This document shows positions 3,346-52,583 of a DNA stretch of 64,000 nucleotides, in pieces. Origin of the DNA: Planctomycetota bacterium (GTDB taxonomy: Bacteria > Planctomycetota > Phycisphaerae > Sedimentisphaerales > Anaerobacaceae). How positions within the stretch are numbered: position 1 is the first letter of the stretch; every line of letters begins with the position of its first letter. The position numbers and the translations under genes were made by a program. Below the pieces are notes generated by a model that saw only the letters and a list, made by a program, of their open reading frames with translations, was not told where the DNA came from and ran no database searches. Location of the stretch: NCBI GenBank assembly GCA_014384025.1, contig JACNGQ010000092.1, positions 1 to 64,000 on the forward strand, given 5' to 3'.

Positions 3346-3582
3346 ATGTTGGTTCTAAGCAGGCAAAGAGATGAATCGATTATGATCGGTGATGATGTTG
3401 AGATTATTATCGTCGATGTACGGGGTGATAAGGTCCGTTTGGGTATAACGGCCCCGAAGGAGATACCGGTTCATCGAAGAGAAATATACGACGCGATTCA
3501 ACGCGAAAAAGGCCTGAAAAAGGAACCTCAGTCAGAGCATCCGGAAAAACCCCAGACGCCGGAGTCCACGAAAGATTCCTAA
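3346..3582 (+). CDS. csrA: Carbon storage regulator CsrA
   Basis: The 78-residue protein begins MLVLSRQRDESIMIGDD and contains VRLGITAPKEIPVHRREIYDAI, the full CsrA beta-strand and helix core with the conserved RNA-binding residues near R44 (VHRREI). CsrA is a homodimer that binds GGA motifs in mRNA leaders and controls their translation and stability. The C-terminal 17 residues are a charged, proline-rich tail beyond the usual 60-65 residue family length. The start follows AAAAGGAG at ordinary spacing. It is a single-gene unit with a hairpin over its stop codon. In other bacteria CsrA tunes motility, biofilm and carbon flow; its targets here are unknown. Confidence 0.95.
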   Translation: MLVLSRQRDESIMIGDDVEIIIVDVRGDKVRLGITAPKEIPVHRREIYDAIQREKGLKKEPQSEHPEKPQTPESTKDS

Positions 3583-3595
3583 TAGTTGGAATCTT
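3572..3595 (+). terminator. Hairpin over the csrA stop codon
   Basis: AAGATTCC (3572-3579) pairs perfectly with GGAATCTT (3588-3595) across an eight-base loop that includes the csrA stop codon. No clear U-run follows, so it may be a weak terminator or an mRNA end-protecting stem. Confidence 0.4.
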
Positions 3596-3933
3596 CCCAC
3601 AACGTTTTCATTTCATACTTCTACCATAGTTTCTACGATATTATCATTGTTTCGGTGGATTATTTTAATTTACCATAATTTGTGTTGTTATAGACTTTTA
3701 TAAAAGAACCAGACAAAACCACGACCATCGAAATATTGCTCACGAAAATTTCTCCTTGCCTTTCCCCCCTCCCACATCTTAACATACCCTCGGCATGCGG
3801 ATGTTCTTTGATTTTAGCCACCAAGGAAGTAATGTAGATTGTGAACCGTACACCTTTGTTCTTATACGAAAAACAAATAAACAGTTCTTATGCTTTCCAA
3901 ACTGAACCGGATTAAAAAAAGGAGGATAATTTT
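3596..3933. other. Intergenic gap between csrA and the isomerase-like gene
   Basis: No gene, clear promoter or repeat seen. AAAAAGGAGG just before the next start is a strong ribosome site. A minus-strand open frame (3862-4266) overlaps the real gene and has no recognisable features. Confidence 0.4.
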
Positions 3934-4968
3934 ATGAAAGAAGGCATTGAAATTAATCGAAGACAATTTATGGGCGCTTCGCTGGCCGCCACTGCTGGAT
4001 TTCTGGCAAATGTCAACGGCACTTCTCAGGGGGCTCAAAAGAAAAAGTCGAATATGAAGGTTGGTTTGTACAGCATCACATTTCTTGGGATTTGGTATCG
4101 CGGAGAGGCCCTTTCCTTGGAAGAGATGATTAAACGAGCAAAAAGTTATGGTTATGAAGGGATTGAGATTGATGGAAAGCGTCCTCATGGCAATCCACTC
4201 GACTGGCCAAAAAAACGCTGCAGGGAACTTCGCTCTTTCTCTGACGGAGAAGGTATTGAAATTCATGGAGTTGCGGCCAATAACGATTTCAGCAGTCCGA
4301 TCCCGGAATACCGAGAGTGTCAGATTGCTTATGTTAAAGAGCTGATTCGAATGACATCGGATTTGGGTGCGAGGACTTTACGGATGTTTCTGGCCTGGCC
4401 GGGTGTTACAAAACATCCGCAACTGGCGCAATACACCATCGCAAAGGATAACTGGAAATATAACCATAAGAAATTTACCGAAGAAGAAATATGGACCTGG
4501 TGTCGCGAAGGCATGGCTGAATGTGCACGATATGCCGAAGATGCTGGCGTTATCTTGGCATTACAGAATCATGCTCCTGTTATCTGGAGTTACCAAGACG
4601 TGCTGCGGATGGTCAAACAAGTCAATTCCACAAGCCTGAAAGTCTCATTGGATGTTCCGATTATGGTGGATAAACGTCCTGAAAATATCCGGAAAGCTGC
4701 CCAAGCCGTAGGTAATTTACAGGTCCTGTCCCATTTCGGTGGTGAATACGATAGGGATAAAAATGGCAAAATAAAAGGCGCTGAATTCTATACACCTTTC
4801 ATTCGGGCAATGCATGAGATTGGATATTCCGGCTATCTAAGTTATGAATTGTGTCATCCGCTGCCGAAAGTAAATGGCCAAACAGTAGGCATCGAATTTG
4901 CAGAAAAAAATGCTCAATTAGCCGCCGAATTTATGCGTGGGATCATTAACGAAGCTACAAAGGCATAA
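3934..4968 (+). CDS. Tat-exported sugar phosphate isomerase/epimerase-like TIM-barrel protein
   Basis: The 344-residue protein begins with a Tat leader (NRRQFMGASLAATAGFLAN), then about 290 residues of an AP-endonuclease-2/xylose isomerase-like TIM barrel. Features seen: EEMIKRAKSYGYEGIEIDG early in the barrel; LALQNHAPVIW, where Glu is often found but here is replaced by Gln; SLDVPIM; VLSHFGGEYDRD; and SGYLSYELCHP near the C-terminus. In this family His, Glu and Asp bind a divalent metal. Planctomycetes carry many exported members thought to act on sugars in the periplasm. The substrate is unknown. The start at 3934 follows a near-perfect ribosome site. Confidence 0.85.
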   Translation: MKEGIEINRRQFMGASLAATAGFLANVNGTSQGAQKKKSNMKVGLYSITFLGIWYRGEALSLEEMIKRAKSYGYEGIEIDGKRPHGNPLDWPKKRCRELRSFSDGEGIEIHGVAANNDFSSPIPEYRECQIAYVKELIRMTSDLGARTLRMFLAWPGVTKHPQLAQYTIAKDNWKYNHKKFTEEEIWTWCREGMAECARYAEDAGVILALQNHAPVIWSYQDVLRMVKQVNSTSLKVSLDVPIMVDKRPENIRKAAQAVGNLQVLSHFGGEYDRDKNGKIKGAEFYTPFIRAMHEIGYSGYLSYELCHPLPKVNGQTVGIEFAEKNAQLAAEFMRGIINEATKA

Positions 4969-21756: not shown

Positions 21757-21787
21757 AAAAGCCCTGTCTTGGGATGGGGCTTTTTTT
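21757..21787. terminator. Bidirectional terminator between the ABC-2 and ECF operons
   Basis: AAAAGCCC (21757-21764) and GGGGCTTTT (21776-21784) form a stem with a seven-T run on the plus strand. It serves the plus-strand ABC-2 operon and sits 80 bases past the stop of the minus-strand ECF operon. The arms are nearly the same as those of the rpoD terminator. Confidence 0.75.
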
Positions 21788-21867: not shown

Positions 21868-23196
21868 TTAAATAAACAACCTTGGATCATGTGTTGCTAT
21901 TATGACAATCCCATCCTGCTCGATATGATTTTTTATTGCACCATTTAGATAATTCATTTCATTCTGTGACAAAAAAAGCGATGGTTCATCTAATATCACA
22001 ATTGGTTTGTTTCGAGCAAAAGCAGATAATACACTTGCAAGTTTTCTATCTCCGTTTTTGTTAAGTGTATTATTAATAATTTCATACTCAGTCATCCCAA
22101 TATTTAACAGCCATTTTTTTGCTTTCATCTTTGATTGTTCATTATATTTTATCTTATCCATAGCAAAGGAAATTTCATTAATTAAATTATCTTCCGTTAT
22201 ATCAATATCTGTTTCTTGCGGTGAATATGAAATCATTTCGCTTAATGGGTGCTTTTTTTGATTATGATTATATTGAATTGTTCCTGTCCAATTCGTAATT
22301 ATATTTGTTAGTGCTTCAAACAATGTTGTTTTGCCGCTTCCATTTTTACCAATAACCCAAGAAATCTGACCGGAACAAAATTCACAAGACAAATTTTCAA
22401 TGACTAGCTTATCTCCACGCCAAATATTAAGGTTTTCAATTTTTAGTGATGCAGATTTATTATCAGAAACTTTTGTCTTAGAAATGCTTAGATCGTTACT
22501 AAAAAAATCCTCATGCTTAGTTAAATAATTTTTAATTTTATGATTTACATCTACTTTTGTTTCTGACACTTTCCAGACTGCATCAAATCTTACTGAGGCC
22601 AATAATTCCGGGTAATCAATAACAATTACAAGTGTGTCAGGAAGTATTTTTTTATCATTCAAAAACCCCAAAAAACTATTTCTTGACTGGTTGTCAAGTT
22701 CATTTAAGGTTCTATCGATTATCCAGATTTTGGGCATATGTATCAAATGAGACGCCAAGATAACTTTTGCAACCTCACCCCCAGAAAGATTTAAGGGATT
22801 CCTTTTGAGTAGATGCGAAATTCCTATTTCTTGTGATACAAAATTGAGTAATTCATTAGATTCAGCTTCTAATACTTTAGTATTCAAGCCAAGAGTAACC
22901 TCTTCTTCCACAGAGGTAGAAAACCTGGATACTTCGGCACGGGGATTAGGGCTCGTATAAGCATTTTGAACGGTTTGTTTTTTCAAATTGCTAACTTTAG
23001 AATACTCTACATTATAACCGGATAATTTAATAAGAATCTTGTCAAAATTAAAGGCAGCTAAAGCTACAATTCGTGCAATCTCCAAATCATCAGCAGTAAT
23101 TAGGAGTTTATTTGTATTTGTTAAATCAACTCCTTCAAATGAAATATTTTTCTCATTTGGCGTAATTATGTTAAATGCTTGAATATTTAAATTCAT
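21868..23196 (-). CDS. ECF-type importer ATPase, two fused ATPase halves with complementary defects
   Basis: The 442-residue protein holds two ABC ATPase domains. The first (about 1-235) has no Walker A loop. It keeps the signature NLSGGEVAKVILASHLIHMP and a weakened Walker B, WIIDRTLNEL, without the catalytic Glu in the DE position. The second (about 250-442) has Walker A GKNGSGKTTL, Walker B IVILDEPSLFL and switch His IIATHDPR, but its signature is replaced by LNKNGDRKLASVLS. Together the halves can build one canonical ATP site: Walker A of half 2 with the signature of half 1. It starts four bases after the EcfT-like stop. Such CbiO/EcfA ATPases power vitamin and metal uptake. Strongly AT-rich. 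Confidence 0.85.
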   Translation of the reverse strand: MNLNIQAFNIITPNEKNISFEGVDLTNTNKLLITADDLEIARIVALAAFNFDKILIKLSGYNVEYSKVSNLKKQTVQNAYTSPNPRAEVSRFSTSVEEEVTLGLNTKVLEAESNELLNFVSQEIGISHLLKRNPLNLSGGEVAKVILASHLIHMPKIWIIDRTLNELDNQSRNSFLGFLNDKKILPDTLVIVIDYPELLASVRFDAVWKVSETKVDVNHKIKNYLTKHEDFFSNDLSISKTKVSDNKSASLKIENLNIWRGDKLVIENLSCEFCSGQISWVIGKNGSGKTTLFEALTNIITNWTGTIQYNHNQKKHPLSEMISYSPQETDIDITEDNLINEISFAMDKIKYNEQSKMKAKKWLLNIGMTEYEIINNTLNKNGDRKLASVLSAFARNKPIVILDEPSLFLSQNEMNYLNGAIKNHIEQDGIVIIATHDPRLFI

Positions 23197-23200
23197 TATT

Positions 23201-23905
23201 CTAAAATAAGAAGCTGATTGTTATAAAGAAAATACTGAGAACGACCCAAAAAATTTGACCTCGATTCCATTGTAGTCCTAACTGTTTATTCCAAATAGAT
23301 TCACACAAAAAATTACGGTAATATAAACTTCTGGCATGAATTTGCAAATGGTTAAATAATATATAAAAAACAGGAGTGATTATTCTTATATAAGCAGTCA
23401 TTTTAGCGTAAAGTGAGTTGAAAGCATATCCTTTTAATTTAAGCAATGAAACGGTTTTATTACCATAATCTTTTACAAGCATAATAGAACTAATTGACGT
23501 AAGCAGAAGATATGTTATTTTCTTAGGCACTTTTATTTTGTCAAATAAGATCATCCATTGATATGGTTTAGTTATTGCAGAAAGATATAGAACTGTAACT
23601 ATCAATGTTGAAATTAACCCAAATCGACTAACGGAATGAAGTATAGCCTCTTTATAAGGCAAACCACCAGTTGCCAATGCCAGCGCAATTACCGTCAAAA
23701 AAATTGCTGCAATAGCTAATATTCGGAGATAGAATTTTAGAATACACACGATATTCTTTTGGAATAATCCAATTATAATTAAAAGCGTTGCAGGCAAAGG
23801 CGAATAGATGTTCGGTAGACATACAAACAATGTCCACACTGCAAACAGTAATATCGCTAATATTAATAATGTAGGCTTCGCTATTATTTTAAACATTTTT
23901 AACAA
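23201..23905 (-). CDS. ECF transporter T component (EcfT/CbiQ family)
   Basis: The 234-residue membrane protein has four to five helices in its first half (for example PTLLILAILLFAVWTLFVCL and ILAIAAIFLTVIALALATG). A cytoplasmic region follows with the two coupling helices: LLKLKGYAFNSLYAKM and LQIHARSLYYRNF, where the A-R-[GS] motif of EcfT is visible. A final helix, FWVVLSIFFITISFLF, ends the protein. The start overlaps the end of the S-component gene by 17 bases. EcfT couples ATP hydrolysis to movement of the S component. It is a bit shorter than typical EcfT. Confidence 0.8.
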   Translation of the reverse strand: MLKMFKIIAKPTLLILAILLFAVWTLFVCLPNIYSPLPATLLIIIGLFQKNIVCILKFYLRILAIAAIFLTVIALALATGGLPYKEAILHSVSRFGLISTLIVTVLYLSAITKPYQWMILFDKIKVPKKITYLLLTSISSIMLVKDYGNKTVSLLKLKGYAFNSLYAKMTAYIRIITPVFYILFNHLQIHARSLYYRNFLCESIWNKQLGLQWNRGQIFWVVLSIFFITISFLF

Positions 23906-24443
23906 AAGTAGCTGGCAATCTTTTTATCAACAACATAACAATTATTGAAGTGAGTAATTTATCAATTGGATCAGAAGCAATTCCGCTTAGAACTACACTT
24001 TCAAGAACATTTTTGCCCGACGCTATCAATAGTGCTGTTATAGCATCTGTTCCAGCCAAGGACACACCTCCGTATACTATGGCCGTTATTGGCGCAGAAA
24101 CAATTGCAGAAACAACTCCAAGGCCAATGCCGCAAAATATTGTTGGTATCCACTTTTTTAGATAGCCATATCTTCTAAGAACACCAACATACAAAGCGAT
24201 AACAATAGCAGTTCCTACATAAGCAGGTAAAGTAGGCATATAAATTGCTCCAATTAAAACTGTAATCACTCCCACGATAATCCCACAAACAGGACCTAAA
24301 ACACAAGCTGCCAATACAGTACCAATGGAGTCGAGATAAAAAGGTAAACGAACAGTAGCAATAAGGAAGCCAATACCTAAATTGAGGATTACAGAGACAA
24401 CTATAAAAGCAAGTCTCTCAGGCATTATTGTAATTTTTTTCAT
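23889..24443 (-). CDS. ECF transporter S component (substrate-binding membrane protein), substrate unknown
   Basis: The 184-residue protein has about six helices and starts behind AGGAG. LPFYLDSIGTVLAACVLGP near residues 29-47, IIVGVITVLIGAIYMPTLP near 55-73 and GIASDPIDKLLTSIIV near the C-terminus fit the compact S-component pattern. The first helices probably carry the small-residue faces that bind EcfT. The family with SDP[IL]DK at the C-terminus is common but has no assigned vitamin that I can name. It sits between a methyltransferase gene and the T and A genes. The substrate may be what the linked enzymes modify; that is inference. Confidence 0.78.
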   Translation of the reverse strand: MKKITIMPERLAFIVVSVILNLGIGFLIATVRLPFYLDSIGTVLAACVLGPVCGIIVGVITVLIGAIYMPTLPAYVGTAIVIALYVGVLRRYGYLKKWIPTIFCGIGLGVVSAIVSAPITAIVYGGVSLAGTDAITALLIASGKNVLESVVLSGIASDPIDKLLTSIIVMLLIKRLPATFVKNV

Positions 24444-24468
24444 TTTTATCTCCTAATACTTAGTACAC

Positions 24469-25287
24469 CTATTTTTTCTTTATACACATCAAAACACTCG
24501 AGTTTACTCCGACGATATCTTCTTTGTAGACAGTTGTTTTGAAAATATTCCTTGCTTCTTGATTATCTGGAACTTGCAGATATTTAGTTTCAACAATACG
24601 TAAATCATACTTACTTATGATTTTTTTGTAATCCAACATTGTGCGATGAAAATATGGCAAATAAATAGTAGACGGGCTTGTAGAAATGGGATATTTTGCT
24701 GCCCAGTCCCAGTCTTTTACAAAATTAGCACCCTTGCCAATTTGTGCCATTTTAGGCTCTCTTTCAGATAAATTGCAAGCAAATTCAGGTGCTACAATTA
24801 TCGATAATAACAAATCATCTTTTTCCAATACTTCACTTATATTAGAAAAAAAACTATGGACGGAATACATCTCCTGTAAAACAAAAATATTCATGAATAT
24901 CCTTGGTGCCTCATACCCTTTTATTAATTCAGTCCAACTCTCATCATTTAAATCGTTTTTGACGACTTTTAAATTCCTAACTTTTTTTTCTAATAATTTC
25001 TTGGCAATTTTTAATTGCTTCTTAGATATATCGATTATGGCAACACAAATGTCATCGTTAAAAGGTATATTTTGATCATCAAGCAATTCATTCAATGTAT
25101 ATCCGTCGCCACACCCAAGGTCAATAATAGATGGAATCCTTGCAAGGTGACTTAATTTCTCCCTAATTGCTGGCAAAACCACCTGTTGGCGATAATAGTA
25201 GTCTTGTCCATTTCTTTTAATCCATCTATCTTCACCTGTTTTCCAAAGGTTTCGACTCCAGGAATGCCATGACTTTTCATTATTCAT
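24469..25287 (-). CDS. Class I SAM-dependent methyltransferase
   Basis: The 272-residue protein carries motif I IIDLGCGDGYTLNELL (near 51-66), motif II VAIIDISKKQLKIA (near 82-95), motif III region KVVKNDLNDESW and motif IV MNIFVLQEMYSV. The N-terminal NNEKSWHSWSRNLWKTGEDRW is Trp-rich. The C-terminal half has a variable substrate domain (PYFHRTMLDYKKIISKYDLRIVE). A small-molecule target is likely from the family type, but the target is unknown. Its ATG overlaps the stop of the upstream membrane gene (ATGA), with a 17-bp tandem repeat right before it. Removing one repeat would fuse both frames. Confidence 0.85.
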   Translation of the reverse strand: MNNEKSWHSWSRNLWKTGEDRWIKRNGQDYYYRQQVVLPAIREKLSHLARIPSIIDLGCGDGYTLNELLDDQNIPFNDDICVAIIDISKKQLKIAKKLLEKKVRNLKVVKNDLNDESWTELIKGYEAPRIFMNIFVLQEMYSVHSFFSNISEVLEKDDLLLSIIVAPEFACNLSEREPKMAQIGKGANFVKDWDWAAKYPISTSPSTIYLPYFHRTMLDYKKIISKYDLRIVETKYLQVPDNQEARNIFKTTVYKEDIVGVNSSVLMCIKKK

Positions 25288-26126
25288 TTTGTTTGATTGT
25301 GTCCTATATTTGATTGTGTCCTATATTTGTGAATTACATAAAAACAATTACCTAATATTAATATTGCTGCCGATGAACCTGCGAAAAATAATGGGTCTTT
25401 TATCTTAATTCCAGCTGTATATGCAGTAAAACTAACTAACAAAATGGCCATATCAAGAGGCAGTGTGCTTGCCAGGAAAGTCTCCAGTTTAAACTGTTTT
25501 TTCTTAATAATAAAAAATATTATGCTATCTGAGACAAAATAAAAAATGGGATAGGCAAGTAAATTAAGCTGTACTCCCCCATGTTTAGTTAATTTTGGGA
25601 GCAAGAAACCGATAACCCATAATGGTGCAAGGCAACAAATGACGCCCAAGAATATAATATAGCAACCATACTTACTAACTTTGGCTTTTTTGTGAAAAAC
25701 CAGATAAAGACCTACCGTTGTCGAAATAACACCTGCAAATAAAATATACATTAAATATTCATCTTGATTGTTAAAATTTATTTCAGAAAAAAATAATGAT
25801 AATATAAAGCTAATAAAAACAGCAAGGACTACTATCTGAAGAAAGTATATAGAAAATAAACCTTTATGTTTTTTTTCTTTATGTTCTATAATCAATTCTT
25901 CATTAATGTCAAGGAGGGCAACTAAATTTGATATACCTGTTGCAAGAAATAGTACTGATGTAATATCTAGCTTATCTGGAGAAGAAATCTTAGAAAACCA
26001 TTGAAGAATACATTTATGAATAAATGTAGAATAGATTATCATAATACATGGAAGAAAAAGAAGAAGGATTTTGGAGAAATTACCATGTATTTCTCTTCTG
26101 ATATTTTTAACTATATCAAACATCAT
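25284..26126 (-). CDS. Eight-helix integral membrane protein of unknown function in the ECF operon
   Basis: The 280-residue protein has about eight hydrophobic segments, among them ILLLFLPCIMIIYSTFIH, LFSIYFLQIVVLAVFISF, YGCYIIFLGVICCLAPLWVI and LNLLAYPIFYFVSDSIIFFI. The loops are charged: NEELIIEHKEKKHKG, which is His/Lys-rich, and LPKLTKHGGVQ. No family was recognised. It might be an integral membrane enzyme or a helper of uptake. It ends with a 17-base tandem repeat that encodes its last residues and creates the four-base overlap with the methyltransferase gene. Confidence 0.7.
   Translation of the reverse strand: MMFDIVKNIRREIHGNFSKILLLFLPCIMIIYSTFIHKCILQWFSKISSPDKLDITSVLFLATGISNLVALLDINEELIIEHKEKKHKGLFSIYFLQIVVLAVFISFILSLFFSEINFNNQDEYLMYILFAGVISTTVGLYLVFHKKAKVSKYGCYIIFLGVICCLAPLWVIGFLLPKLTKHGGVQLNLLAYPIFYFVSDSIIFFIIKKKQFKLETFLASTLPLDMAILLVSFTAYTAGIKIKDPLFFAGSSAAILILGNCFYVIHKYRTQSNIGHNQTK
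25288..25327. repeat. 17-bp tandem duplication at a gene junction
   Basis: On the minus strand AAATATAGGACACAATC occurs twice in direct succession just before AAACAAAATGA, the stop/start overlap of the membrane protein and the methyltransferase. Because 17 is not a multiple of three, one copy fewer shifts the membrane-protein frame into the methyltransferase frame, reading YRTQSNKMNNEKSW without a stop. Confidence 0.9.
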
Positions 26127-26195
26127 CTACTTTCTCTTTACAAAATTTACACTTTGAAAAAGGACTTCTCATTTCACTATAATATCGGCACAATT

Positions 26196-26768
26196 TCAAC
26201 GTCTTGCCATTTTAATATTATTAATCTCGTTATAATGCTCCGCAATCTTATCCAAAAGGACCTGATATTGCTTGTAAAATCCTATTTTGCAAATTCTTTT
26301 TGTGTCAAGTTTGAGTGTCTTGCATGCTTCCAACACAGGGCAATAATTGCTAAGCAATAACCAACCATCTATATCAAATTCTTGTTTCTCCAATCTAATA
26401 TGTATTTTGTAAAGTATTCTTGTGCCATAATCCTTTATTCTTTCATTCTCATATGGTGGATAATCTTTTATGTTAATATTAAACCAGTTTATTTTACTCT
26501 CAGAATACACCTCATTAAATGCGGTCCAATATATAGTTAGTGTAGCTTTTTTGTAACTAACATCAAAATTTGAGTTGTTAATTAAATAGACTGGATAAAG
26601 AAGTTCAATAGCTCTTTTAGTTTCTGCTGCTATGTTTTTTTTGTATATTTTTTCTAATTCATCTTGCTTTAAGGTATTATACAAATTTGAAAAAACAGTG
26701 CTATTGGGTTTCTCTTCAATTCTCTTTAAGATATCTTCTAAAAACACTTTGTAGTCTTTTTTATTCAT
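26196..26768 (-). CDS. Uncharacterised protein with a C-P-x3-A-C / C motif, first gene of the ECF operon
   Basis: The 190-residue soluble protein has an alpha-helical N-terminus (KDYKVFLEDILKRIEEKP) and a central beta-rich part (NFDVSYKKATLTIYWTAFNEV). The C-terminal motif is NYCPVLEACKTLKLDTKRIC, three Cys residues with spacing CPx4ACx8C or similar, followed by KIGFYKQYQVLLDKIAEHYN. A comparable Cys layout occurs in small hydrolase-like and metal-binding families, but I cannot assign one. Its place at the head of the ECF operon suggests a role with the imported compound. AT-rich. The promoter could lie at 26778-26806, weakly. Confidence 0.65.
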   Translation of the reverse strand: MNKKDYKVFLEDILKRIEEKPNSTVFSNLYNTLKQDELEKIYKKNIAAETKRAIELLYPVYLINNSNFDVSYKKATLTIYWTAFNEVYSESKINWFNINIKDYPPYENERIKDYGTRILYKIHIRLEKQEFDIDGWLLLSNYCPVLEACKTLKLDTKRICKIGFYKQYQVLLDKIAEHYNEINNIKMARR

Positions 26769-26827
26769 ATATTATTCCCTGTAAATATATCCCTACCCAT
26801 TGTCAAGACAAAAACTTGAGGTTTTTA

Positions 26828-26842: not shown

Positions 26843-28156
26843 ATATATTAAAGCAGTTTAAGCGGTGGGTGTCTGGAGTACCATCTTGCCGAAATTCCTC
26901 TCCCCAACAAACTTCCCTTTACTCCTGTCAATCTCATAATAACAACTGCTTTCATTCCACCTGCTTTTCCGCCCGATAATATTCCTTTCTGGCTATAATT
27001 ACTCATTTTACCCAAACCAACAACATCAACCACATTTTCGACAAAAAACGCTAAAAAACTAAAAAAAAACACCAAAAACCAGCAAAAACTTGTCCTGAGC
27101 AGAGCCGAAGGATCAACCACTTTTCTCCATTCTAAATTCTCCATTCTAAATTTGACCGAAAATCCGATGGATTTTCGGTCAAAAACGCTCACAGTTAAAA
27201 ACAAAAATCTAAATTTTCAAAATTTTTATCTCTTTTTCATATAACGACTTACGAACATCAGATACACAGTGGGGAGTCTTGGAGATTAAAACCGATTTCC
27301 CTTGTTTTTCGACCAAAATATGGTATAATACACTCTGTTGGCTAAAAAGCCAACGGAGGGTAGTTTACCCTCGATGGTAGCTCACATGCTTCCCTGTCGG
27401 GGGCATATGTTAGCCAGCAGGCTAACGAAAGCCCCCAGAAGGGGGAAGTTCAGGCCAGATAGCCAAGCCTTGTCCCGTTAGAGTGCCGTTTACTTTAATG
27501 GGATCAAAATTGTCCCCGAATGTCGTAATCGGGGATTAGCAAACCATCAATCGTAAATAGTCAATAGTAAATATTAAATCATAAGTGCTGCACACTCGTC
27601 TAATTATAGAGGGAGTATCTTGCCCCGCTAGAGTGCCGCTTGTCCCGTTAGAGAGCCTTATACTCTAATGGGATATACTCTAATGGGGTTTACTCCCCTA
27701 GTTTACCCGAGTTTATCCCCGGGTGCTGCTAACTTGGCGTGCAACAGGGGAAGTGCTGCTAACTTGGCATATAACAGGGGGCCTAAGCCCACAATATGAA
27801 ATATGAAATCTGAGATATGAAACATCCAACTTTAGCTCACTTTAGGCACTTTAGCTCACTCTTAACTCAATTTCCCTCTACAACTGTAGAGAACTCTCTA
27901 CAAATCACCCCTTTTTATGCAAAACAAACCCAATATTATGCGTTTTTCAACTGAAAACGATGATTTCACCAAAAAACAAACCCAATTCAAACCCAATTAA
28001 AGCCAAAACAAACCCAATTCAAACCCAATAAAGCCAAAAACAAACCCAAAACAAACCCAATCGCAAAAAGTATGTCCGAAACAAAACTTGTTTATTTCCA
28101 CCTGCCCCGCCAGGCATTATAATGTAGGGGACCTAAACTTTTTTGGAGGATTAAAA
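26843..28156. repeat. Repeat- and hairpin-dense spacer, right border of the ECF island
   Basis: About 1.3 kb without a believable gene. Perfect 15-bp stems lie at 27151-27165 and 27169-27183 (TTTGACCGAAAATCC, loop GAT). GTTGGCTAAAAAGCCAAC is near 27338-27355. GTTAGCC-AGCA-GGCTAAC is near 27408-27425. Two related 31-base hairpins starting TCCCGTTAGAG lie at 27473-27503 and 27643-27673. GTGCTGCTAACTTGGC occurs twice with 30-base period from 27723. Seven CAAACCCAA units lie at about 27924-28061. The frame at 26848-27204 runs through repeat text such as the TCCTGAGCAGAGCCGAAGGA segment. Confidence 0.7.
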
Positions 28157-50601: not shown

Positions 50602-51888
50602 ATGACACATCATAAAATAATTATTGGTGATTCCAGATGTATGATGGAGGTACCCGAGGAATCCGTGCACCTGATTATTACCTCTCCCCCATACTGGCAG
50701 CTCAAAGATTATGGAAATGGCAGCCAAATTGGTTTTGATGATAGCTATGAAGATTACATCAATAATTTGAATGTTGTCTGGAAAGAATGCCACAGAGTCT
50801 TAAATAAGGGTTGCCGTCTATGTGTGAATATCGGCGATCAGTTTGCCCGTTCTGTTTACTACGGAAGATACAAGGTCATTCCTATAAGAACCGAGATAAT
50901 AAAGTTTTGCGAAACTATAGGCTTTGACTATATGGGGGCGGTTATTTGGCAAAAAGTTACAACCTGCAATACCACTGGTGGTGCAACAATAATGGGTTCA
51001 TTTCCTTTTCCGAGAAATGGTATCCTCAAGATTGATTATGAATTCATTTTGATTTTCAAAAAGCACGGTGTCGCACAAAGAGTAAGTAAAGAAATTAAAG
51101 AAACATCAAAGATGACAATAGAGGAATGGAACCAGTTTTTTACAGGCCACTGGAATATTCCGGGCGAAAAACAAGATAAGCATTTGGCGATGTTCCCTGA
51201 AGAGGTACCTAGGCGCCTAATCAAAATGTTCAGTTTTGTAAATGATACGGTTCTTGACCCGTTTCTCGGTAGTGGCACCACTTCTTTGGCGGCTAAAAAA
51301 CTTAATAGAAATTCCATCGGTTATGAAATTAATTCTGAATTCCTTCCATTAATGAAAGAAAAGTTGGATTTAGAACAACAAAGGATATTTGAAGAGACCG
51401 ATTTTGAAATAATCAAGCAAAAGAAATCTTATATAGATTATAAAGAAGTGATCACACAATTACCTTACATTTTCAAAGACCCAGTCGAATTTGACAAGAA
51501 AATCGACCCGAGAAAACTACAGTTTGGCTCCAAAATTAATAACCACAACTCCAAAAGAGAAAAATATTACCCTGTGAAGGATGTAATTTCTCCGGAAAAA
51601 CTGGTTATTGGAGATGGATTGAAAATAAAACTCTTAGGTATAAGAAAAAAACCCAAAATGAGCAAACAGGCGATTCAATTCTTACGGGATAAAACATGTG
51701 GACAAAAGGTTTTTATGAAGTTCGATGCAATAAAACATGATCGTGATAACAATTTACTTTGCTATTTATATCTGGAAAACAAAACTTTTCTCAACGCTCA
51801 CCTGATAAAGAGGGGCTTGGTGGATGTTGATACCTCTCTGGACTATAAGTTCAAGGAAAAGTTTCTAACTACAGTGGAAAAAAACTGA
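50602..51888 (+). CDS. DNA methyltransferase (N4-cytosine type, beta order) with an SNase-like C-terminal domain
   Basis: The 428-residue protein has catalytic motif IV TSPPYWQLKDYG near residue 27 and SAM motif I DPFLGSGTTSLAAKKL near 217, the IV-then-I order of the beta class; TSPPY is typical of N4-cytosine enzymes. From about 310 to 428 comes a domain with VIGDGLKIKLLGIRKKPK, QKVFMKFDAIKHDRDNN and LCYLYLENKTFLNAHLIKRGLVDVD, the strand order of staphylococcal-nuclease-like OB folds but without all catalytic residues. It may add DNA binding. Its stop overlaps the nuclease start by one base. AT-rich relative to the arg genes. Confidence 0.85.
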   Translation: MTHHKIIIGDSRCMMEVPEESVHLIITSPPYWQLKDYGNGSQIGFDDSYEDYINNLNVVWKECHRVLNKGCRLCVNIGDQFARSVYYGRYKVIPIRTEIIKFCETIGFDYMGAVIWQKVTTCNTTGGATIMGSFPFPRNGILKIDYEFILIFKKHGVAQRVSKEIKETSKMTIEEWNQFFTGHWNIPGEKQDKHLAMFPEEVPRRLIKMFSFVNDTVLDPFLGSGTTSLAAKKLNRNSIGYEINSEFLPLMKEKLDLEQQRIFEETDFEIIKQKKSYIDYKEVITQLPYIFKDPVEFDKKIDPRKLQFGSKINNHNSKREKYYPVKDVISPEKLVIGDGLKIKLLGIRKKPKMSKQAIQFLRDKTCGQKVFMKFDAIKHDRDNNLLCYLYLENKTFLNAHLIKRGLVDVDTSLDYKFKEKFLTTVEKN

Positions 51889-52583
51889 TGGCAAAAGAAT
51901 GGATAAAAGGCAGAGAAGGCAGAAATCTCAGATTCAAAAGGGAAAACCTGTTAAATTGGGCCACGAATCGATGGAATTTAAACTATGCTTATAGTGTCGG
52001 TCCAACATCAGAACTCATAAGGAAATGCTCTCCTAAAATCTTTGAAGATTGGGAAATATTCTATTTTGAAAATGCCTACCAAAAGAAGAAAGATGGTATA
52101 AAAGTAACAAGAGAGCACATAACTCAACTTGGTGAAAAGTTGTATATAAAGCTTTCAGAAGTTATTCAAAATGAACTGGAATCAATTCATCACCAAGAAT
52201 GTATCGATTACGTTTATAACCTTGTCTTAAATAGGACGTATGAGGGCTATCAAAAAGAAATTGGTACGATTTATGGCCAATTAGAGTCGATATTAGATGA
52301 AAAAATACAGCCAGCTCCCGATGAATGGGATAGAAGGTATAATGTGGATTTTTTCATAGAAGTAAAAGGTAAATACATAGGTCTTCAAATAAAACCAATT
52401 TCTTCTGGTCGTCCATTGGATTATTATCAATGGGAAAGGATACACGAGGAAAATCATAAAAAGTTCAAAAACAAGTTTGGTGGTCAAGTTTTTTTCATCT
52501 ATTCAACTGGGAAAAAGGAAATCTACAACTTGGAAGTTATAAATGAAATTAAGAAAGAAGTTGAAAAACTAAATATTTTATAA
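51888..52583 (+). CDS. MjaI-like type II restriction endonuclease
   Basis: The 231-residue protein resembles the MjaI family by memory of its pattern: SVGPTSELIRK early; LGEKLYIKLSEVIQNELESI mid-protein; YNLVLNRTYEGYQKEI; then QPAPDEWDRRYNVDFFIEVKG and YIGLQIKPISSG, likely the catalytic core with D...E/Q-x-K. The C-terminal GGQVFFIYSTGKKEIYN closes the fold. MjaI cuts CTAG; whether this enzyme does is not shown. It forms a pair with the overlapping methyltransferase gene. Base composition is AT-rich, unlike argF and rdgB on either side, so horizontal gain is likely. Confidence 0.75.
   Translation: MAKEWIKGREGRNLRFKRENLLNWATNRWNLNYAYSVGPTSELIRKCSPKIFEDWEIFYFENAYQKKKDGIKVTREHITQLGEKLYIKLSEVIQNELESIHHQECIDYVYNLVLNRTYEGYQKEIGTIYGQLESILDEKIQPAPDEWDRRYNVDFFIEVKGKYIGLQIKPISSGRPLDYYQWERIHEENHKKFKNKFGGQVFFIYSTGKKEIYNLEVINEIKKEVEKLNIL

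Follow-up and report, generated by a model that had tools for sequence, protein, structure and literature searches.

Energy-coupling factor (ECF) importers bring vitamins, among other scarce nutrients, into the cell, and for many of their S components no cargo is known. In group I ECF systems the S component, the T component and two ATPases are encoded together in S-T-A-A' operons, and the two ATPase sites are asymmetric. We analyzed a 64,000-nucleotide stretch of contig JACNGQ010000092.1 from a Planctomycetota bacterium (assembly GCA_014384025.1), hereafter the window, which holds at positions 21868-26768 of the minus strand an operon with the same likeness: S, T and two ATPase domains are encoded together. 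It differs from group I systems in that both ATPase domains lie in one chain with one site degenerate, and in that an S-adenosylmethionine (SAM)-dependent methyltransferase (MT) is a near-constant partner, fused to the ATPase in four genomes. There is, in our estimate, an about even chance that the operon encodes a dedicated, horizontally acquired ECF importer with a coupled MT that methylates the cargo on entry, the cargo being the putative methyl acceptor.

The closest curated S family, CD3073 (NF045596), is likewise without an assigned cargo and likewise found beside an accessory enzyme, which in that family is a TudS-related desulfidase and in the window an MT. BtuM, an ECF S-component-like vitamin B12 transporter that decyanates its cargo (PMC6072759), is a precedent for cargo modification linked to an ECF-type uptake protein; BtuM performs the chemistry with its own cysteine, whereas the present system has a SAM enzyme, either separate or fused. 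Novelty was judged against the open-access literature and the family databases searched, and no description of an ECF-methyltransferase system, or of an ECF nucleoside system, was found in that literature.

An earlier note on this DNA, made from the letters alone, had described six minus-strand genes with short gaps or overlaps, encoding in order a Cys-motif protein, a membrane protein, the MT, and the S, T and double-ATPase components of a complete importer. All six open reading frames (ORFs) were found where the note had placed them, and the junctions in transcription order are a 69-nt gap, a 4-nt overlap, a 25-nt gap, a 17-nt overlap and a 4-nt gap. Completeness of the importer was upheld for each of its parts by family or homology matches. 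The S component (23889-24443, minus strand; 184 aa), the substrate-binding membrane subunit, scored just below the cut-off of Pfam ECF_trnsprt (28.3 bits against 30.7; E 2e-6). It matched the CD3073 ECF S family with an E value of 2.7e-27 at 95.5 bits against a cut-off of 180, so it is not a member of that family; together with these matches, homology to annotated S components of complete operons marks it as an ECF S component. Identity with FolT was considered and rejected, since TIGR04518 gave 21.9 bits against a cut-off of 60. The T component (23201-23905, minus strand; 234 aa; first in-frame start TTG), the coupling membrane subunit, is divergent. Like the membrane protein and the Cys-motif protein, it had no Pfam or NCBIfam match above cut-off, reaching 10.7 bits against the Pfam CbiQ cut-off of 25, and it was identified as a T component by its match to the annotated EcfT of Paracoccus (23% identity, E 3e-5). 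It is 41% identical to the T of the closest relative, L016 (below), and in complete relatives the T position follows S.

The fused double ATPase (21868-23196, minus strand; 442 aa) carries its two nucleotide-binding domains (NBDs) in one chain, seen as two ABC_tran stretches by Pfam, and is 44% identical to the L016 ATPase. NBD1 has kept the LSGGE signature and lost Walker A, and an Arg replaces its catalytic Glu; NBD2 has kept Walker A, Walker B and the Glu and lost the canonical signature. Because ABC nucleotide sites form between the Walker motifs of one domain and the signature of the other, exactly one site is complete, made from Walker A/B of NBD2 and LSGGE of NBD1, and the chain thereby qualifies as an ECF ATPase pair. 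Among relatives from the MT-linked S clade described below, the NBD1 catalytic Glu was missing in each of the seven ATPases examined, with LSGGE or LSTGE in NBD1 and Walker A/B in NBD2 kept; those of L016 and L031 have additionally lost NBD1 Walker A. The asymmetry is a coherent degeneration across the clade rather than decay.

The MT (24469-25287, minus strand; 272 aa) exceeded the Pfam cut-offs for both Methyltransf_31 and Methyltransf_25 and is thus a class I SAM-dependent MT. Relatives of the system were sought by genome scan: a small S alignment used as query against 85,000 species genomes yielded 80 loci, and nearly all carriers of the system are metagenome-assembled genomes (MAGs). In four MAGs, three labelled Deltaproteobacteria (L018, L020, L030) and one Syntrophobacteraceae (L021), the double ATPase carries the MT at its C-terminus in the same chain, S and T being followed by one ORF of 764-773 aa arranged NBD-NBD-MT. 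Both ABC_tran stretches and the MT domain were confirmed by Pfam on the L018 ORF, and a class-wide search found the fused arrangement in 4/56 genomes. Because it is fused to the ATPase in these four relatives, the MT can reside on the ATPase, which supports the combined role in uptake and methylation that the earlier note had proposed.

Examination of the closest relative, L016, a MAG labelled Proteobacteria, revealed an S component 69% identical to that of the window and the same order of membrane protein, MT, S, T and ATPase. A 4.1-kb contig labelled Petrimonas (L017) carries S, the MT and the last part of the gene for the membrane protein, and immediately upstream lies a transposase-like region; L017 and L104 are both short contigs. 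Conservation of the gene order in unrelated genomes, which the earlier note had named as a supporting check for all six genes, was thus found for five of them in L016 and not for the Cys-motif gene. The note would have given up its proposal had the MT and membrane protein failed to co-occur elsewhere or had S homologues been assigned to a known vitamin; the two proteins do co-occur in L016 and L017, and no examined S relative was so annotated. The MT was absent from the 290 other genomes of the class of L016 (0/290), and its distribution is therefore patchy. A search of Latescibacterota found it in 4/64 genomes. An MT of WOR-3 (L019) was rejected as a family member, its score not exceeding that of generic MTs. 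The MT, T, membrane and Cys-motif proteins had no match in 72,556 plasmids, and scans of viral contigs returned no relative.

The S and MT genes have a common history. A tree was built from 88 S proteins, and in it the nine S components with this MT at the locus form together with L031 one clade with support of 100/98; the S component of the window belongs to this clade. The MT label required 2 changes on this tree compared with 8.7 in shuffles, none of 500 shuffles being as low, and S and MT distances were correlated with a Mantel r of 0.93, unequalled in 5000 permutations. Outside the S clade, the MT profile found only weak generic MTs, mostly distant from S and on the other strand.

The structural model of the MT had a pLDDT of 88.9, and matches in the PDB span the whole chain. 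With Foldseek, ToxA and 3e8s were closest, followed by XrdM and the cap guanine-N7 MTs; ToxA, a heterocycle N-methyltransferase, XrdM and 3e8s were also among the top PDB profile matches. VIA-align gave its highest Z, 21.7, for 3e8s, and 19.7 for ToxA at 15% identity. ToxA, the N-methyltransferase of toxoflavin synthesis (PDB 5je1, 5je5), is the best Foldseek match; identity is 14-16%, no azapteridine synthesis genes were noticed near the MT, and a similar fold shows no common substrate. The MT forms a family of its own, in which the invariant residues are W10, W22, W193, W195, Y199-P200, L210-P211 and R215.

Neighbors of the MT-clade loci indicated no cargo, and no other pathway gene recurs there. 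Members of the wider S family lie beside PfkB kinases (11 loci), PPC-domain proteins (17), IF-2B-type isomerases (8) and nucleoside hydrolases (4), and also beside nucleoside 2-deoxyribosyltransferases and a TudS-type desulfidase; a Streptomyces relative lies beside a thymidylate-synthase-like protein and a radical SAM protein. Given these nucleoside-linked neighbors and the nearness of the MT to ToxA and the cap guanine-N7 MTs, the likeliest cargo, proposed with low confidence, would be a small planar N-heterocycle, perhaps nucleobase- or nucleoside-like. The Streptomyces importer of this S family, located on a plasmid (L009, 715-8066), has an S component with an N-terminal extension, and its neighbors are the thymidylate-synthase-like protein, a B12-binding radical SAM protein and a possible methyltransferase; this locus could be a natural-product cluster that includes an importer of its own.

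The proposed mechanism is as follows. S would bind a scarce extracellular small molecule, which T and the double ATPase, working with a single complete composite site, would move inward. The MT, held at the ATPase, would methylate the cargo with SAM during or just after entry, and methylation may trap the cargo or convert it to a usable form. Both the action of the MT on the cargo and the trapping or activation that would follow are what we infer from the arrangement of the parts. A stronger form, in which transporter and MT, docked or fused at the ATPase, are one machine that imports its cargo and tags it covalently, is offered only tentatively, as we think it somewhat less probable than not; such vectorial methylation would be analogous in its logic to phosphorylation by the phosphotransferase system.

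Several observations weigh against methylation of an N-heterocyclic cargo on entry. No MT of this family was found in the MAG of L031, a member of the S clade. In Latescibacterota the MT stands on the strand opposite to S-T-A where it lies beside these genes (L024, L107, and L104, in which only the ATPase end is in view), and in L108 the MT and its partner protein are on a 10-kb contig without ECF genes. Protein N-terminal MTs gave VIA-align Z values of about 19-19.7, level with ToxA and only 2 below 3e8s, and one fold is common to the class I MTs. The nucleoside-linked neighbors all belong to other S clades and none to the MT clade, a sister S clade is partly beside pyruvate dehydrogenase genes instead, and the broad S profile weakly resembles FolT structures (E 1e-6 to 4e-5). 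Folate was rejected as the cargo, as the resemblance to FolT is confined to the broad profile and absent from the MT-clade profile.

Two of these relatives have features of their own. In L031, a Hydrogenothermaceae MAG, an ORF of at least 257 aa and of no known family (3348-4118) follows S-T-A at the place where the MT would stand. In the sister clade, seven S genes (L022, L023, L025, L026, L028, L029 and L035), from Ignavibacteria and Bacteroidota, lie directly behind the pyruvate dehydrogenase genes, possibly a cofactor link through thiamine or lipoate; neither was retained as the cargo of the MT clade, these neighbors being confined to the sister clade.

The Latescibacterota loci also bear on what the MT acts upon. 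In these loci a protein of about 370 aa either follows the MT or is fused with it, and this protein carries a weak domain resembling cyclic nucleotide monophosphate (cNMP)-binding domains (L024, 8458-10467; L104, 240-2232; L107, 5227-7228; L108, 3767-5774). This regulator-like protein, the constant partner of the MT in that phylum, would suit a sensor-importer, in which the MT modifies the transporter or another protein for regulation or signaling and the membrane protein or cNMP-domain protein relays the signal. A cNMP-like protein beside the ECF genes of the WOR-3 locus L019, the near-equal structural matches of the MT to protein N-terminal MTs, and the ATPase fusion, which would equally bring the MT near a protein target, point the same way. 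We nevertheless rate a sensor-importer, the main rival reading, as rather unlikely. Apart from the SAM motif, conservation in the MT falls mostly on aromatic residues (W10, W22, W193, W195 and Y199), so that a small planar ligand fits better than a peptide, which is only suggestive, and no acceptor motif turned up in S, T or the ATPase, where no search aimed at one was made.

Uptake and methylation could also be separate steps of one pathway, such as salvage of a methyl acceptor, with the MT processing a compound made or degraded elsewhere, linked to the importer by common regulation and physically uncoupled from it in the window. Operon partners often serve one pathway without physical contact, and the MT is its own gene in both the window and L016. 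The MT-ATPase gene fusion in four genomes speaks against this arrangement, and no further pathway gene was found to recur around the MT-clade loci; we consider it distinctly unlikely.

Horizontal gain of the operon, the origin that importation with coupled methylation was proposed above to have here, is well supported. The GC content of the operon is 31.4% compared with 44% for the whole window, and GC at third codon positions is 0.22-0.30 in its genes compared with 0.47-0.62 in the flanking genes tested, in agreement with the earlier note, which had described the base use as more AT-rich than on both sides and had suggested horizontal gain. In 161 genomes of the host order the MT had no strong match, only generic MTs being found (E 5e-4 to 2e-7). 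Apart from the window's own (G023), S had one match among 392 genomes of the phylum; it was discarded as spurious, being a membrane protein unrelated to S and located at the end of a contig. The best relative, L016, belongs to a different lineage, and its system is likewise an AT-rich patch (35.6% within a contig of 46.3%). That the operon is instead a contaminant joined to a planctomycete-like contig is highly improbable: the fragmented genome has 448 contigs (contamination 4.39%), the composition breaks sharply at the operon and misjoins would be likely in the repeat-rich spacer upstream, but the window has ordinary genes of higher GC on either side of the operon, L016 shows the same AT-rich patch, and the genes make up a conserved system irrespective of the host.

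The remaining two genes of the operon are less widely shared. The membrane protein (25284-26126, minus strand; 280 aa), of no known family, has eight predicted helices, also present in an AlphaFold2 model of low confidence (pLDDT 52). It adjoins the MT in L016 too, and in L017 as a C-terminal part, making three sequences in all. It probably serves only one branch of the system, as an accessory, and might be a receptor or second membrane partner. The Cys-motif protein CPVLEACKTLKLDTKRIC (26196-26768, minus strand; 190 aa) is encoded by the first gene, inside the AT-rich island. The host order yielded a single weak relative (L116; E 6e-5), with a common CPxLxxC...C...QYQ motif, and the 12 genomes holding relatives of the window's S or MT yielded none. 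The protein is probably a passenger or local addition, and the earlier note's inclusion of it in the unit was not supported.

A terminator-like stem-loop, a pattern match only, lies just beyond the ATPase gene, the last of the operon (21757-21784, scored on the plus strand). A weak promoter-like match lies upstream of the Cys-motif gene (26784-26811, minus strand); such matches occur in the region in the number expected by chance. No Rfam RNA, including any riboswitch that would name the cargo, reached threshold anywhere in the window. Upstream of the operon is the repeat-rich spacer (26848-28087), with short tandem and inverted repeats (e.g., 27972-28061). Neighboring genes in the window encode sulfatases, pectate-lyase-like proteins, a primase and a sigma factor; together with the kin groups they point to a planctomycete host, probably one of the Sedimentisphaerales. 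A second AT-rich insert (50602-52583), between ornithine-carbamoyltransferase-like and nucleotide-pyrophosphatase-like genes, encodes an unusual-looking fusion of a DNA N6/N4 methylase with a staphylococcal-nuclease-like domain, followed by an MjaI-type restriction endonuclease.

The ATPase-MT fusion ties a chemical step to a transport step, and it offers two independent assays for the cargo: one for the binding of a ligand by S, the other for the transfer of a methyl group by the MT. If the cargo is indeed methylated on entry, methylation would join the short list of covalent modifications that trap or activate imported compounds.

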